Shown here: positions 26,625-31,445 of the stretch, in pieces | How positions within the stretch are numbered: the stretch's first letter is position 1 | Layout of the letters: each line of letters begins with the position of its first letter | Assembly (NCBI GenBank): GCA_947589575.1 | Contig: CANQBM010000001.1 | Span: 310,001-374,000 of the forward strand | Origin: an uncultured Clostridia bacterium | GTDB lineage: Bacteria; Bacillota; Clostridia; Oscillospirales; Acutalibacteraceae | DNA length: 64,000 bases | Reading direction: 5' to 3' | Notes under the pieces: generated by a model | The model's database searches: none | Told to the model about the DNA's origin: nothing | The model's input: the letters and a program-made list of their open reading frames with translations, nothing else | Translations under genes and position numbers: made by a program

Positions 26625-27434
26625 ATGAGAATTTTACTAATCGCGGATGTTCATAATAAACCGCACGGCAGTAAAAAATCGCTCAATTCAATTAATAATA
26701 TTATTAAAAAAAGCAAAAGTGATTTAATTGTTTTTATGGGGGATACTGTTCACGGTCCGTCTACGCCTTATAACTATGAAAAATATTTGAGACAGGTTTT
26801 TGATTTAACGGGGGATGTTCCTTTCGCGACGGTCTTCGGCAATCACGACGATGAGTGCTCCACCTCAAAGGAAGATATTTTAAAAATTACGAAATCATAT
26901 AAAAACTGCCTGACTGTCGGTTGTGATTACGTTATTGAAATGTTTGACGAGACCCTGCTTTTCATTGACAGCGGTTCGTATTATAACGGGGAAGAGAGCT
27001 TTTATGATACGGTGAAAAAGGAGCAAATTGATTTTGCGAAATCAAAAATAAAGGGTAAAAAGGCAATTCTTTTTCAGCATATAATTATGCCTGATATTAT
27101 GGAATGTATTGAAGAATACGGAAAAATGGTAAAAGGAGCAGTACGTGACGGAGAAAGATTTTATAAATTTAAAAATAATATTGAATATACAGGTACGCTC
27201 GGTGAACGTCCTTGTCCTCCCGATATAAACACAGGCGAGTTTGAAGAACTCAGGGAATATTTAAAAGCCTGTGTTTTCGGTCATGACCATAAAAATTCAT
27301 TTGAACTTTATATAAGAGGCGTGAAGTTTATTCAGTGTGCCGGAAGCGGTAATAACTCATACGATAAATTCTGCAAATCATCAGTCAAAATACTTGATAC
27401 AAAAACACTTGAAACAGAGCGGATTTTTATTTAA
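26625..27434 (+). CDS. Calcineurin-like metallophosphoesterase
   Basis: 269 aa. The five metal-site blocks are present in order: ADVHN (7-11), MGDTVHG, GNHDDE, FQHIIMP and FGHDHKNSFE, as in PF00149 enzymes with a two-metal centre. There is no signal peptide, so it is cytoplasmic. The closest architecture is that of stand-alone bacterial phosphoesterases of unknown substrate, acting on nucleotides or phosphodiesters. GGGAGA precedes the ATG. It has its own promoter, and no terminator with a clear T run was seen after it. Confidence 0.9.
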   Translation: MRILLIADVHNKPHGSKKSLNSINNIIKKSKSDLIVFMGDTVHGPSTPYNYEKYLRQVFDLTGDVPFATVFGNHDDECSTSKEDILKITKSYKNCLTVGCDYVIEMFDETLLFIDSGSYYNGEESFYDTVKKEQIDFAKSKIKGKKAILFQHIIMPDIMECIEEYGKMVKGAVRDGERFYKFKNNIEYTGTLGERPCPPDINTGEFEELREYLKACVFGHDHKNSFELYIRGVKFIQCAGSGNNSYDKFCKSSVKILDTKTLETERIFI

Positions 27435-27576: not shown

Positions 27577-27605
27577 TTGCGTTTAAAATTTTTGTGTGTT
27601 ATGCT
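27577..27605 (+). promoter_or_regulatory. Probable promoter of the peptide/ABC exporter unit
   Basis: TTGCGT, 17-bp spacer, TATGCT: a moderate sigma-A match with correct spacing. The predicted start falls on the palindrome that follows. Confidence 0.55.
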
Positions 27606-27611
27606 TTTTTC

Positions 27612-27625
27612 ATTGATTAATCAAT
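27612..27625. promoter_or_regulatory. Palindrome at the predicted transcription start (candidate operator)
   Basis: Perfect 14-bp palindrome ATTGATTAATCAAT located 6-20 bp downstream of the -10 box, a common place for a repressor site. No regulator gene is adjacent. Confidence 0.45.
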
Positions 27626-27650
27626 AATAATTTAACGGAGGTGAACACAA

Positions 27651-27767
27651 ATGACAAAATTCAGAGCTTATGATATGACTAATCAAATGGTTGAACCTAA
27701 ATGGTATGGGTACAACCGTAATATTTTCTGCCGATTTATTGATTGTGTTCACTATCCCAATCAATAA
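27651..27767 (+). CDS. 38-residue peptide of unknown family, candidate exported or precursor peptide
   Basis: A short gene with a near-perfect ribosome site (GGAGGTG, seven bases before the ATG). The product starts MTKFRAYDMTNQMVEPKW and ends CRFIDCVHYPNQ. It has a polar first half, an aromatic middle (KWYGYNRNIF) and two cysteines four residues apart (27 and 32), which could form a disulfide or thioether. There is no hydrophobic signal, no GG leader motif and no match to a precursor family I know. It is followed at once by an attenuator-like hairpin and then two ABC exporter genes, the usual layout for a highly expressed precursor with a less expressed transporter. No modification enzyme or protease is nearby. 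Translation is well supported by the ribosome site and context; export and function are inference. Confidence 0.7.
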   Translation: MTKFRAYDMTNQMVEPKWYGYNRNIFCRFIDCVHYPNQ

Positions 27768-27781
27768 ATAAGTGTGTTTAC

Positions 27782-27818
27782 GCACCGCCGGCAGTAATGC
27801 CTGCGGTGCTGTTTTTTT
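27782..27818 (+). terminator. Attenuator-like terminator between peptide and exporter genes
   Basis: GCACCGC-C-GGCA-GTAA-TGCC-T-GCGGTGC followed by seven T residues: an 11-bp stem with one mismatch and a tetraloop. The exporter ATG is only about 18 bp further, with no room for a separate promoter, so partial read-through is likely. Confidence 0.85.
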
Positions 27819-27835
27819 ATGAATGAGGTGAAATT

Positions 27836-29656
27836 ATGAGGTATATTCAGCTTCACGAGCAGACCAAGGTGCCTGTTGTGAAAAATATAATTTACGCGGT
27901 CAAGCTGGTATGGCAAGCGGACAAAAGACTGCTTTTGGGATATATATTAAGCTATGTTTCAAGCGCAATTTTTTCTTTATTTATTCAGAATATTTTATTT
28001 TTAAAAGTTCTTTTAACATTGATTGACGGTAATTCGGATTTCAGGGTATATGTAAAATATTTAGCAATATTTTTGCTTGTGTCATTATTTTCAAAAGCGG
28101 CTGAATGGTACGGCAGTTATATGAATCATGACGCTACTAAAACGGTGCTTAAAAATATTAATAACAAAATATTTAAAAAAGCTTATCAGCTTGATGTAAG
28201 CTGTTATGAGGACCCTGAATTTTATGACAAATACCAAAGGGCTACGCTTGTATTATCCTCAGGATACTATGATCTGATTTGTTATGATATTTCAATTATT
28301 GTCGGCGCGGTAGTATCCTTTATCTGCGTCATTACAACTGTTACTGTTATTGACCCTATGTATCTTCTGTTTCTTCTTCCCGTACTATTTGTATTTGCTG
28401 TTGAAATCTCAAAAAGCAGGCTCGTATATAAACGCGACCTTGAAATGACGACAAATAACAGAATTAAGGCATACGTACAGCGTACGGTTTTTTTAAAGGA
28501 TTATTCCAAGGATATGAGAACGTCCAATATATTTGCCGTGCTTATGAAACGCTTTGACGCAGCAATAAAGTCAAATATTGTTATACTTAAAAATTACGGA
28601 TTAAAGCTGTTTATATACAGTATGGTAAGTTCTGCATTAAGCGAGTTCATACCGATTATAGGTACATACGCTTACGCGGGATACCAGTTTGTATATAAAG
28701 ACACAATGACTGTTTCGGGATTTTCAGTTGTTCTTTCCTCAATAAATTCCGTAAGAGATACAACGCTTAATATTGTTGAAGGTTTTGACGAGCTTAATCA
28801 GATGGCGCTGTATTTTCAAAATCTGCGCGACTTCTTTGACTATGAGCCGAAGGTTGTAAGCGGAACAAAAACAGCTGGGGAGTTTGAAAGCCTTGAATTC
28901 AAAAACGTCAGCTTTAAATATCCGTCTGCTCAGAAATACAGCATTAAAAATGTCAGTCTTAAAATAAATAAGGGCGATACAGTTGCCGTTGTAGGCATCA
29001 ACGGCGCGGGAAAATCAACGCTTGTAAAGCTTCTTTTGCGTTTTTATGACCCCGACGAGGGCGAGATTTTCTATAACGGCATAAACATCAAAGAATATAA
29101 TTTTGAGTCTTACAGAGAACGCTTTGCGACAGTATTCCAGGATTATAAAAATTTTGCGATTTCCGTTTTTGAAAACGTAATGTGCCGCGAATGTACATAC
29201 GAGGATAAGGCTTTTGCCAAAAAAGCGTTAATTCAAAGCGGTGTTTGGGAAAAAATCAGTTCCTTTTCAAACGGCGGAGATACTCTTTTAACACGTGAGT
29301 TTGATGAAAACGGAGCAGGTCTTTCGGGTGGTGAAAATCAGAAGGTTTCAACCGCAAGGCTTTTTGCGAGAAATTTTGATATTGCGGTTCTTGATGAGCC
29401 TTCCTCCGCTCTTGACCCGATTGCCGAGTACCGGATGTATGAAAATCTGATTTCAGCAACCGAGAACAAAACGGTAATCTATATTTCTCACAGGCTCTCA
29501 AGCGCCGTTTTGTCGGATAAAATATTCGTACTCGGAGACGGCAGGCTTATTGAGTCTGGAAATCATTCTGACCTGATGGCGCAAAATGGAGAGTACCGCA
29601 AAATGTTTGACCTCCAGTCAAAAAGCTATAAGGAGGAGGTGAACTCCGATGAGTAA
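27836..29656 (+). CDS. ABC exporter half-transporter, first subunit (permease-ATPase fusion)
   Basis: 606 aa. An N-terminal six-helix exporter domain (about 15-330) is fused to an ATPase domain: Walker A GINGAGKSTLVKLLL, Q-loop FATVFQDYKNF, signature LSGGENQKV, Walker B IAVLDEPSSALDP and switch His in YISHRLSS. There is no N-terminal C39 peptidase domain. It forms a pair with the next gene, whose ribosome site and start overlap its last codons by 8 bp, so a heterodimer is likely. GAGGTG precedes the ATG. The small peptide gene immediately upstream makes a peptide the best guess for substrate; drug or lipid export is the alternative. Confidence 0.92.
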   Translation: MRYIQLHEQTKVPVVKNIIYAVKLVWQADKRLLLGYILSYVSSAIFSLFIQNILFLKVLLTLIDGNSDFRVYVKYLAIFLLVSLFSKAAEWYGSYMNHDATKTVLKNINNKIFKKAYQLDVSCYEDPEFYDKYQRATLVLSSGYYDLICYDISIIVGAVVSFICVITTVTVIDPMYLLFLLPVLFVFAVEISKSRLVYKRDLEMTTNNRIKAYVQRTVFLKDYSKDMRTSNIFAVLMKRFDAAIKSNIVILKNYGLKLFIYSMVSSALSEFIPIIGTYAYAGYQFVYKDTMTVSGFSVVLSSINSVRDTTLNIVEGFDELNQMALYFQNLRDFFDYEPKVVSGTKTAGEFESLEFKNVSFKYPSAQKYSIKNVSLKINKGDTVAVVGINGAGKSTLVKLLLRFYDPDEGEIFYNGINIKEYNFESYRERFATVFQDYKNFAISVFENVMCRECTYEDKAFAKKALIQSGVWEKISSFSNGGDTLLTREFDENGAGLSGGENQKVSTARLFARNFDIAVLDEPSSALDPIAEYRMYENLISATENKTVIYISHRLSSAVLSDKIFVLGDGRLIESGNHSDLMAQNGEYRKMFDLQSKSYKEEVNSDE

Positions 29657-31445
29657 AAATAAAAATAAAACAGAACATTCAATGCTCTCAAATATATTTT
29701 TCTTTATTAGATTGCTGTTTTCAATCTCTCCGCTTCTTGTAATCGGCGAGTGCATATGGGGAATCATACTGACACTGCCGGCAAGACTTATCAGTGTACT
29801 CGGTGTTAAATATATAATTGATATTGTCAGCAGCAGGGAAAGAACGGAAAGAGTATTTGCTGTTATCGCGGTAATAGCTGCCGTGCTTGTTTTAAGCAAG
29901 CTGATCGCGTGGCTGTTCAGGGAGTTTTACTGGAATGTTGAAAGGGAAAAGGTATATCGGGGACTGAATACAAAACTTTATGAGAAAGCAAAGTCGCTTG
30001 ATTTATCCTCATACGACGATCCTGATTTTTACAATAATTTTATTCTTACAATAGAATCATCGTCTGACAGTATTCAGAATATGCTCGGACTTGTAAGAAA
30101 CTATATAGGTAATATTATTTCACTGTTTACCATAGGCTCAATTCTTCTTGCTATTGACCCTTTGTGTCTGTTAATTATTCTTGTGTTTGTGGTGGCATTT
30201 ACACCTCTCAGCAGAAAAATAGGCAGTCTTCAAATGAACAGAAGAATTGATAATACAAGATTTCACAGACGTTCCGACTACTTTCAGCGTATTTTTTATT
30301 TGCAGGATTATGCAAAGGAAGTGCGTATGAACAATATCAAGCCTCTGCTTATTGAACGGTACAATGACGCGGCGGATGATGTTATTAAAAATCAGAAAAA
30401 GTACTGGTCAAAAATATCGCTTTTTTACTTTATACAGGAATCCGGTGTGCAGGTTTTAGGTTTTATGTTTATTCTTCCGCTTTATCTCGGATATTGCGTT
30501 CTTGTGAAGAAAACCGTTTCGCCGGGCGATTTTGTCGCATCCTTTAACGGCGCTTATTCAATCGCTATGTCATTCAACTTTTTAACCGTGTGGGCTCTTT
30601 CGGCATTTTCCGAACGCGGAAAAATGATTGAAAAATACAGGGAATTTTTAAAATGCGAAGGCAAGATTAAAGACGGTAAACAGTCCGCATTAATTTCACA
30701 GCCTAAGACAATCGAAATTAAAAATCTTTCCTTTACATATCCGGGAAATAATGAGCCGACGCTTAATAATATTAATTTAACCGTAAAACCGTATGAAAAG
30801 ATAGCACTGGTAGGCTATAACGGCGCAGGAAAAACCACCCTCACAAATCTTTTACTAAGGCTTTATGATGCCACCGAGGGCGAGATTCTGATTGACGGTG
30901 AAGATATAAGAAACTGTACTGTAAAATCGCACCGTAACAGATTTTCAGCCGTGTTTCAGGATTTTCAGATTTTCTCCTGTTCAGTCGCGGAAAATGTTGC
31001 GCTTGATGTTGACCCTGATAAAGAAAAGGTTTGTGAAGCGCTTGGACACAGCGGATTTACCAAGGAGCTTAAGGACGGAACGGATACCGAGGTATTGAGG
31101 GAATTTAATGACAGCGGTATTATGATGTCCGGAGGTGAGGCACAGAAGGTAGCAATTGCGAGAGCGTTTTACAAAAATTGCCCTTACGTTATTCTTGACG
31201 AGCCGTCCGCGAATCTTGACCCTGTTGCCGAATACAATCTTAATCAGGCAATGCTTGAGGCGGCCAAGGACAAGACGGTTATCTTTATTTCTCACAGGCT
31301 TTCAACTACAATCAACGCGGATAAAATATATGTTATGGAAAACGGCAGAATAATTGAAAGCGGCTCTCACGCAGAGCTTATGGAAAAGGACTCCGCATAT
31401 GCCTATATGTTCAATCTTCAGGCTGAAAAATACAGAAAAGGATAA
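29649..31445 (+). CDS. ABC exporter half-transporter, second subunit
   Basis: 598 aa with the same fused layout as its partner: six-helix domain (about 15-335), then Walker A GYNGAGKTTLTNLLL, Q-loop FSAVFQDFQIF, signature MSGGEAQKVAIARAF, Walker B YVILDEPSANLDP and switch His in FISHRLSTT. All ATPase motifs are intact in both subunits, so neither site looks degenerate. It has no peptidase domain. The start lies inside the end of the first subunit gene, with AAGGAGGAGGTG upstream. A strong hairpin follows the stop, so the unit is peptide, attenuator, two exporter subunits, terminator. Confidence 0.92.
   Translation: MSKNKNKTEHSMLSNIFFFIRLLFSISPLLVIGECIWGIILTLPARLISVLGVKYIIDIVSSRERTERVFAVIAVIAAVLVLSKLIAWLFREFYWNVEREKVYRGLNTKLYEKAKSLDLSSYDDPDFYNNFILTIESSSDSIQNMLGLVRNYIGNIISLFTIGSILLAIDPLCLLIILVFVVAFTPLSRKIGSLQMNRRIDNTRFHRRSDYFQRIFYLQDYAKEVRMNNIKPLLIERYNDAADDVIKNQKKYWSKISLFYFIQESGVQVLGFMFILPLYLGYCVLVKKTVSPGDFVASFNGAYSIAMSFNFLTVWALSAFSERGKMIEKYREFLKCEGKIKDGKQSALISQPKTIEIKNLSFTYPGNNEPTLNNINLTVKPYEKIALVGYNGAGKTTLTNLLLRLYDATEGEILIDGEDIRNCTVKSHRNRFSAVFQDFQIFSCSVAENVALDVDPDKEKVCEALGHSGFTKELKDGTDTEVLREFNDSGIMMSGGEAQKVAIARAFYKNCPYVILDEPSANLDPVAEYNLNQAMLEAAKDKTVIFISHRLSTTINADKIYVMENGRIIESGSHAELMEKDSAYAYMFNLQAEKYRKG

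Follow-up and report, generated by a model that had tools for sequence, protein, structure and literature searches.

A candidate ribosome-controlled attenuator upstream of an ABC exporter gene pair in an uncultured Clostridia bacterium

The leader and the exporter genes

The window analyzed here is a 64,000-nucleotide (nt) stretch of the genome of an uncultured Clostridia bacterium of the family Acutalibacteraceae (assembly GCA_947589575.1, contig CANQBM010000001.1, positions 310,001 to 374,000), and the element of interest is a short leader that precedes two genes for ATP-binding cassette (ABC) exporter subunits. All features of the leader and of the exporter genes lie on the forward strand and are numbered from the first nucleotide of the window. 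The leader begins with a promoter (27577..27605), read by eye, which consists of a -35 hexamer TTGCGT (27577-27582) and an extended -10 element TGTTATGCT (27597-27605), the two hexamers being 17 nt apart. A promoter-like sequence is seen, again by eye, at the corresponding place in many of the aligned leaders. The Shine-Dalgarno (SD) sequence GGAGGTG (27637..27643), read directly from the sequence, precedes an open reading frame (ORF) of 38 codons (27651..27767) that was present in the ORF list, starts with ATG and encodes MTKFRAYDMTNQMVEPKWYGYNRNIFCRFIDCVHYPNQ. The pattern formed by the SD and its spacer, GGAGGTGAACA..ATG, occurs only once in the genome.

The ORF is followed by an intrinsic terminator (27782..27819), in which the hairpin GCACCGCCGGCA-GTAA-TGCCTGCGGTGC (27782-27809) has a best folding energy of -20.7 kcal/mol and is succeeded by a U-rich tail. 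The tail ends only 16 nt before the start codon of the first exporter gene. This gene (27836..29656) encodes a 606-residue fusion of a transmembrane domain and a nucleotide-binding domain (NBD), with the motifs GINGAGKST (Walker A), LSGGENQ and LDEPSSALD. The second gene (29649..31445) overlaps the first by 8 bases and encodes a subunit of 598 residues with the motifs GYNGAGKTT (Walker A), MSGGEAQ and LDEPSANLD. The promoter, the strong ribosome site, the 38-codon ORF, the terminator and the two overlapping ABC genes had all been named in a preliminary description of this DNA and were found again when the sequence was re-read. A mechanical scan of the window for promoters and terminators listed neither the leader promoter nor the leader terminator; the omission of the latter is attributed to the one mismatch in its stem.

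The locus thus has the outline of a ribosome-mediated attenuator, in that a short ORF with a ribosome site lies upstream of the structural genes and an intrinsic terminator is positioned between them. The leader RNA is more structured than all 200 of its dinucleotide shuffles (z = -4.67). It has only three sub-threshold matches in Rfam, none of which comes close to the gathering score.

Complementary segments and a proposed mechanism

Two pairings within the leader appear to define the switch. In the first, segment 1 (27640..27650, GGTGAACACAA), which comprises the SD and spacer, is complementary to segment 2 (27743..27753, TTGTGTTCACT), located inside the same ORF at its 3' end. The two segments would be the 5' and 3' strands of an anti-antiterminator that, like those of the vmlR and cplR type, contains the start region of the upstream ORF (uORF). 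In the second pairing, segment 2b (27728..27733, CTGCCG), also near the end of the ORF, is complementary to segment 3 (27789-27794, CGGCAG) within the 5' arm of the terminator, and would supply the 5' strand of an antiterminator. Folding suggests an additional, intermediate hairpin ATTTATTGATTG...CAATCAATAAAT (27734..27769), the loop of which holds part of segment 2. In the alignment this hairpin is 58.9% paired, with no pair changed on both sides, as placed, and 70.6% paired, with two such pairs, after a slide of +1. Because the structure is one column off, this result is neither for nor against the hairpin.

The 1:2 helix of the window has a score of 24.5, which was equalled by none of 500 codon shuffles (it was scored as locus L085, a copy of the window). 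Of 41 leaders, 27 representatives were chosen by us after removal of this duplicate, and partners were permuted among them. The mean score of the leaders' own 1:2 partners is 21.5, compared to 15.5 (standard deviation 0.63) for permuted partners, and none of 5000 permutations was as good; a leader's own partner beats 86% of swapped partners on average. Most leaders have an SD and spacer complementary to the 3' portion of their own ORF, and the two strands change in a matched manner between leaders, from GGTGAACACA/TGTGTTCACT in the window to GGCGAACA/TGTTCGCC in L048, GTGAATATAACG/CGTTATATTCGC in L112, GGCGAAACATAATG/TATTATGTTTTGCC in L071 and GGTGGAACAG/TTGTTCCGCC in L052, and a further pair of partners among the other leaders is GGTAAAACAAA/TTTGTTTTGCC.

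The 2b:3 pairing is shorter. Over the same representatives its mean score is 15.9, compared to 14.0 (standard deviation 0.49) for permuted partners, with 2 of 5000 permutations as good. When the two classes of leaders (class II stands before more distant ABC homologs, see below) are taken separately, the numbers are 61 of 5000 for class I (n=20) and 31 of 5000 for class II (n=7), the latter including the top helices of L184 (CGTTTCTG/CGGAAGCG) and L182 (GCAAAGC/GCTTTGC), which were judged not to be equivalent to the pairings of their relatives. The partners again change together: CTGCCG/CGGCAG in the window corresponds to CTGTCCG/CGGACAG in L174, TTTCTGCCG/CGGCAGAAA in L031, ATTTGCCG/CGGCAGAT in L032, TGTTTTGCCAACG/CGTTGGCAAAACA in L071, TGCCAACG/CGTTGGTA in L094, TTCGGG/CCCGAA in L183 and TTTCGG/CCGAAA in L189. 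In L031 and L071 the pairing extends into the terminator loop, which fits a putative antiterminator and is unexplained by pairing of the terminator alone. Segment 2b overlaps segment 2 in several relatives, and the 1:2 and 2b:3 pairings overlap or cross, so that they are mutually exclusive. A different antiterminator, formed by the SD and the 5' arm of the terminator (GGAGGTG with CACCGCC), seemed possible for the window, but was not seen by eye in a few other leaders and was discarded.

These pairings suggest that the 38-codon ORF serves as a regulatory leader and that transcription of the ABC pair is attenuated under the control of the ribosome, a reading to which we assign a probability of roughly 0.7. 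With no ribosome on the SD, the 1:2 anti-antiterminator would form and hide the SD, the 2b:3 pairing would be blocked and the terminator would end transcription. During normal translation, ribosomes would pass over segments 2b and 2, so that 2b:3 would again be blocked and transcription would end. A ribosome held at the SD or start codon, by a drug or by stress acting at initiation or on the first codons, would cover segment 1 and leave 2b to pair with segment 3. The terminator would then fail and the exporter genes would be transcribed. The exporter would in this way be made when translation is disturbed, with translation inhibitors or stress as the probable inducer, and the ABC pair most likely serves to pump out drugs or toxins. 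The succession of steps, the inducer and the substrate are all inferred by analogy with bmrB-bmrCD, vmlR and cplR.

Several observations weigh against this interpretation. A clear ungapped 1:2 helix is missing from L057, L058, L060 and L062, and for L037, L070, L100, L052 and L053 between 15 and 55 of the 500 codon shuffles did as well as the helix itself. The seven closest leaders are 97% paired at 1:2 and nearly invariant, so that the alignment alone displays no covariation. The representatives are not phylogenetically independent, and the permutation counts are therefore not strict probabilities. The 2b:3 pairing of the window has only 6 base pairs and is not significant on its own (p = 0.063 against dinucleotide shuffles; 5 of 19 swaps as good). 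Over the 27 leaders a leader's own 2b:3 partner beats just 63% of the swapped ones on average, and the score is 12 or less in L037, L038, L048, L088, L100, L112 and L173 and 13 in L070 and L176. Finally, the minimum-energy fold of the window pairs the SD not with segment 2, but with a near-copy of it past the stop codon (27774-27781); such a pairing, as modeled, would also cross the antiterminator.

It could also be supposed that the region is a plain 5' untranslated region, with a terminator that belongs to an unrelated small gene, coincidental pairing, and a separate promoter for the ABC genes. This would agree with the 50 of 66 upstream regions from the genus that keep the ABC gene, the presumed pump, and have no recognizable leader, a number that counts against the attenuator as well. 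Against it stand the 1:2 result, which across unrelated leaders beats 5000 of 5000 permutations, and the gap of only 16 nt between the terminator tail of the window and the first ABC gene. A coincidence of this kind is judged highly improbable.

The leader peptide

The preliminary description had taken the 38-residue product for an exported peptide of an undescribed family. The peptide has no match in Pfam or NCBIfam. When it was searched against an even sample of 398 genomes of the family, its own copy was found with an E-value of 1e-25 and the next match had an E-value of 0.01. Some match with an E-value of 1 or less is present in 69 of the 398 genomes, and most of these are short, partial or interrupted; the sample left out the nearest relatives, where copies of the peptide do occur. 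Near copies occur in the closest relatives, L064/L086 and L031/L135, and partial copies in L137 and L103/L139. Homologous ABC pairs elsewhere have dissimilar peptides encoded at the corresponding position, for example MTNKLTYSIDPIQMTQQKKDNSKYQFAENVHPYTV in L032, MTKKRYSLDKHNLNYNFKSKSEISVIFASGIKKCSPVFGA in L048 and MTNRWYDNRKLNTFNSFCPYLRYNSCSCD in L037.

The C-terminal half of the peptide, rich in aromatic residues and cysteine, had been pointed out earlier as its conserved-looking part. Of the seven nearest leaders that were aligned, six do retain the C-terminal stretch FCRF-DCV together with its two cysteines (four leader types; L032 lacks them). Most of this stretch, however, coincides with segments 2b and 2. 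The shared RNA element is moreover read in different frames, as C-V-H in the window and as C-S-P in L048, so that selection apparently acts on the RNA rather than on the peptide. Judged from these comparisons, the peptide sequence drifts while the RNA pairing is kept.

The order of precursor, leaky terminator and exporter genes, the strong SD and the two retained cysteines would all suit a bacteriocin, a precursor of a ribosomally synthesized and post-translationally modified peptide (RiPP), or a peptide signal that is exported by the ABC pair. In an operon of this type the precursor is expected to be conserved together with its exporter, but the conservation is limited to the nearest relatives. 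Homologous pairs are preceded by unrelated peptides, and the retained stretch corresponds to the pairing segments and is translated in other frames elsewhere. Neither exporter has a C39 domain among its Pfam matches, and no peptide-modifying enzyme is present among the seven flanking proteins scanned with Pfam, both of which had been stated before and hold. The preliminary description had proposed that its peptide would be refuted if the frame were not conserved in relatives that keep the exporter pair. For the peptide this largely holds, although a leader ORF of some kind does reappear. The exported peptide is therefore rejected on conservation and context and has become highly improbable. 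What survives of the earlier interpretation is its attenuator, which can now be made specific.

The first residues of the peptide bear on a different question, which is whether the attenuator senses particular codons instead of general occupancy of the start. A drug might arrest the ribosome within the leader peptide, for example a macrolide at K-F-R of MTKFR, or a drug acting on the peptidyl transferase center (PTC) after Thr2. Some PTC drugs prefer threonine near their site, and 18 of 31 leaders carry a threonine directly after the start (ATG-ACN), compared to 12 of 214 control genes. Tyrosine is found within residues 3-8 in 19 of 31 leaders and in 43 of 214 control genes. Lysine or arginine occupies both positions 3 and 5 in 4 of 31 leaders, compared to 6 of 214 control genes (p = 0.026). 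Arg/Lys-X-Arg/Lys is a ketolide and macrolide arrest motif, as described in the available text of PMC8298421. The motif is suggestive in the window (K-x-R in MTKFR), but a pair of basic residues spaced in this way within positions 2-7 is not enriched across the leaders (5 of 31, compared to 21 of 214; p = 0.22), and the macrolide motif was set aside. Past Thr2 the leader peptides are diverse. The 31 leaders are related and not independent, so that these p-values overstate the case. Codon-specific arrest appears less likely than not, yet it is by a wide measure the more plausible of the alternatives to sensing of the start region.

Distribution, neighboring genes and related systems

The ABC gene is present in 66 of 80 genomes of the genus. 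Among bacterial assemblies it was found at 54 named loci, almost all of them labeled as Clostridia or subgroups thereof. In 50 of these 54 loci the match to the first subunit is followed by a separate one to the second (in L058, L075, L082 and L083 the best second-subunit match falls on the first gene). A leader with SD, ORF and terminator was recognized at 16 of the 54 named loci; for the genus the count is likewise 16, out of 66 upstream regions. Two of the 68 ABC1 matches in the genus were left out, G435 with a broken gene and G468 at a contig end. These counts are our own reading of the scans, in which leaders with an unrecognized SD or terminator would escape (L174 was found by eye), and the rows with SD, ORF and terminator in L035, L036, L075, L097, L110, L140, L143, L154 and L158 were excluded from them. 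The window and loci L031-L134 together yielded 75 candidates with an SD, an ORF and a terminator. Those with a 1:2 score of at least 19.5 are all located upstream of this ABC gene, with the exception of one on the minus strand of L071; the scan covered 2,104,700 bases, counting both strands and with some repeats, of which 400 kb came from the window's own genome and amount to about a quarter of it.

Class II leaders precede ABC homologs that are about 35-41% identical to ABC1 of the window and are shorter, with about 18-25 codons (e.g. MMTTLFNKTEIRVAVSVSAC and MKYSVRNANYPVIVSAPC). They share both kinds of pairing. The SD and start region GGACATAATG is complementary to the end of the ORF, and the terminator pairs through TCCGG/CCGGA, TTCGGG/CCCGAA or TTTCGG/CCGAAA. 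Such leaders were found beside 13 of 13 and 6 of 6 ABC matches with E-values of 1e-100 or less in two other genera, of which one of the leader scans took in three of the 13 loci and four of the 6. Among the 26 loci L172-L197, a leader of either class is present in 17, including L174, and none was recognized in the other nine.

The 5' ends of the leaders have features of their own. In the window, a palindrome TTGATTAATCAA (27613..27624) lies near the expected transcript start and is a candidate 5' hairpin or operator; it has only one copy in the genome, and no operator regulon was found for it. Many leaders have a short palindrome or hairpin after the -10 element that is specific to the lineage (ATTGATTAATCAAT; CGTTGCGCAACG in L176/L177; TTACTTGCAAGTAA in L172) and is open to the same two readings. 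The 5' hairpin of L183 is TTTCTGCACC-loop-GGTGCAGAAA, and its loop CCGTGTTAA is found, exactly or nearly, in several class II leaders. In L100 and L101 a small helix-turn-helix gene, identified by eye, is situated between the leader and terminator and the ABC pair, and the leader may control this regulator. In L035 and L036 an ORF of 9-10 codons (MLDIKSEQK / MKLDIKSEQK) upstream of the ABC gene enters a long hairpin followed by T's, and an extra promoter-like sequence precedes the ABC gene; these two were not counted as leaders of the window's build. A cysteine-rich peptide of 49 residues (MERIKTIETRDLVKST...CGECQTSCQSACKTSC...), which resembles the six-cysteine SCIFF peptide, is encoded near the class II ABC pair in L192 (minus strand, 3062), L193 (plus strand, 3042) and L234 (minus strand, 3043), the minus-strand positions being counted on the reverse complement.

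Both exporter subunits have an intact Walker A motif, signature, Walker B motif with its glutamate, and H-loop, as is expected of a type IV ABC exporter pair. The only Pfam matches above their cut-offs are ABC_tran in both subunits and ABC_membrane in subunit 2, the score of the latter in subunit 1 being 18.7 against a cut-off of 28; among the best 25 NCBIfam models for each exporter, none reaches its cut-off. Searches of solved structures returned generic ABCB/MsbA relatives and no clue to the substrate among the best 60 of 215 and the best 60 of 243 matches. BmrCD-type heterodimers lack the catalytic Walker B glutamate in one subunit, BmrC having the degenerate site. Unlike BmrC, both NBDs encoded in the window carry LDE, and the pair thus does not fit the type of heterodimer with one degenerate ATP site. 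The seven flanking proteins comprise, according to Pfam, a metallophosphoesterase, one protein with no significant match, ThrRS, SPFH, NfeD, AIRS-type and HypD proteins. The metallophosphoesterase gene (26625-27434) is upstream of the leader. Using tblastn, it was found upstream of the ABC gene in 7 of the 54 named loci (upstream sequence of 900 nt or more is available for 50 of them), and the ABC pair thus sits in varied neighborhoods.

Leaders of related design have been described, and the following comparisons are with the available portions of the cited papers. The bmrB-bmrCD locus of Bacillus subtilis likewise has a short translated leader ORF, a terminator and two ABC exporter genes, in that case for a multidrug exporter (PMC4191407). 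Its leader forms three alternative stem-loops, and induction by drugs requires translation of the leader (PMC4191407). The bmrB terminator is inside the leader ORF, whereas that of the window comes after the stop codon, and the role of the bmrB anti-antiterminator was called unclear by its authors, whereas the one proposed for the window contains the leader's own SD (PMC4191407). The vmlR leader of B. subtilis shares the logic of anti-antiterminator, antiterminator and terminator, and a ribosome stalled at initiation on its uORF prevents the anti-antiterminator (PMC9226507). It differs in that its uORF has three codons and lies within the anti-antiterminator hairpin, the SD is single-stranded upstream, and the target is an ABC-F factor and not an exporter (PMC9226507). 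In the cplR leader of Clostridioides difficile, similarly, a 5' hairpin sequesters the uORF and stalling there permits the antiterminator, but the uORF encodes a tripeptide, the terminator conceals the main gene's SD as well, and the target is again an ABC-F factor (PMC10201436).

The 'ABC-leaders' of a 2010 survey of premature terminators are predicted attenuators before ABC transporter operons, including that of a multidrug exporter in lactobacilli; the available portions of the survey describe neither pairing with the leader's own SD nor a leader ORF of the window's build (PMC2965389). The msrDL leader also combines a leader ORF with an intrinsic terminator, and a drug-stalled ribosome allows transcription through it. 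In that case the ORF encodes a hexapeptide, the ribosome stalled at its end is itself what obstructs the terminator, and the target is an ABC-F factor (PMC10314930). The literature surveyed on leaders, attenuators and arrest motifs, in which few subscription papers were covered, contained no leader in which the SD is complementary to the end of that same leader, nor any that controls this ABC pair. Attenuators with a leader ORF are known to act on ABC-F factors and on an ABC exporter, and the wiring described here, with its fast turnover under a fixed pairing, looks like a variant of them.

On a broader and more tentative view, to which we give somewhat less than an even chance, the leaders may constitute a widespread and undescribed class of attenuators among Clostridia of the gut and rumen. 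The switch strand would be the ribosome-binding site of the leader itself, which would sense a ribosome at the start, giving one family of ABC exporter pairs a broad sensor of translation stress. Peptide and sequence would change freely under a constant pairing, rendering the class invisible to family searches based on sequence.

If the attenuator is real, a short ORF that resembles a peptide precursor would in fact be a sensor, and this would correct a reading as a bacteriocin-like gene that is otherwise likely. It would also provide a rule by which fast-evolving, sequence-poor attenuators could be sought, namely that the SD of a leader can pair with the end of that leader, and a neighboring segment with the terminator. 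Uncultured gut Clostridia would then be predicted to induce the pump when their translation is disturbed.

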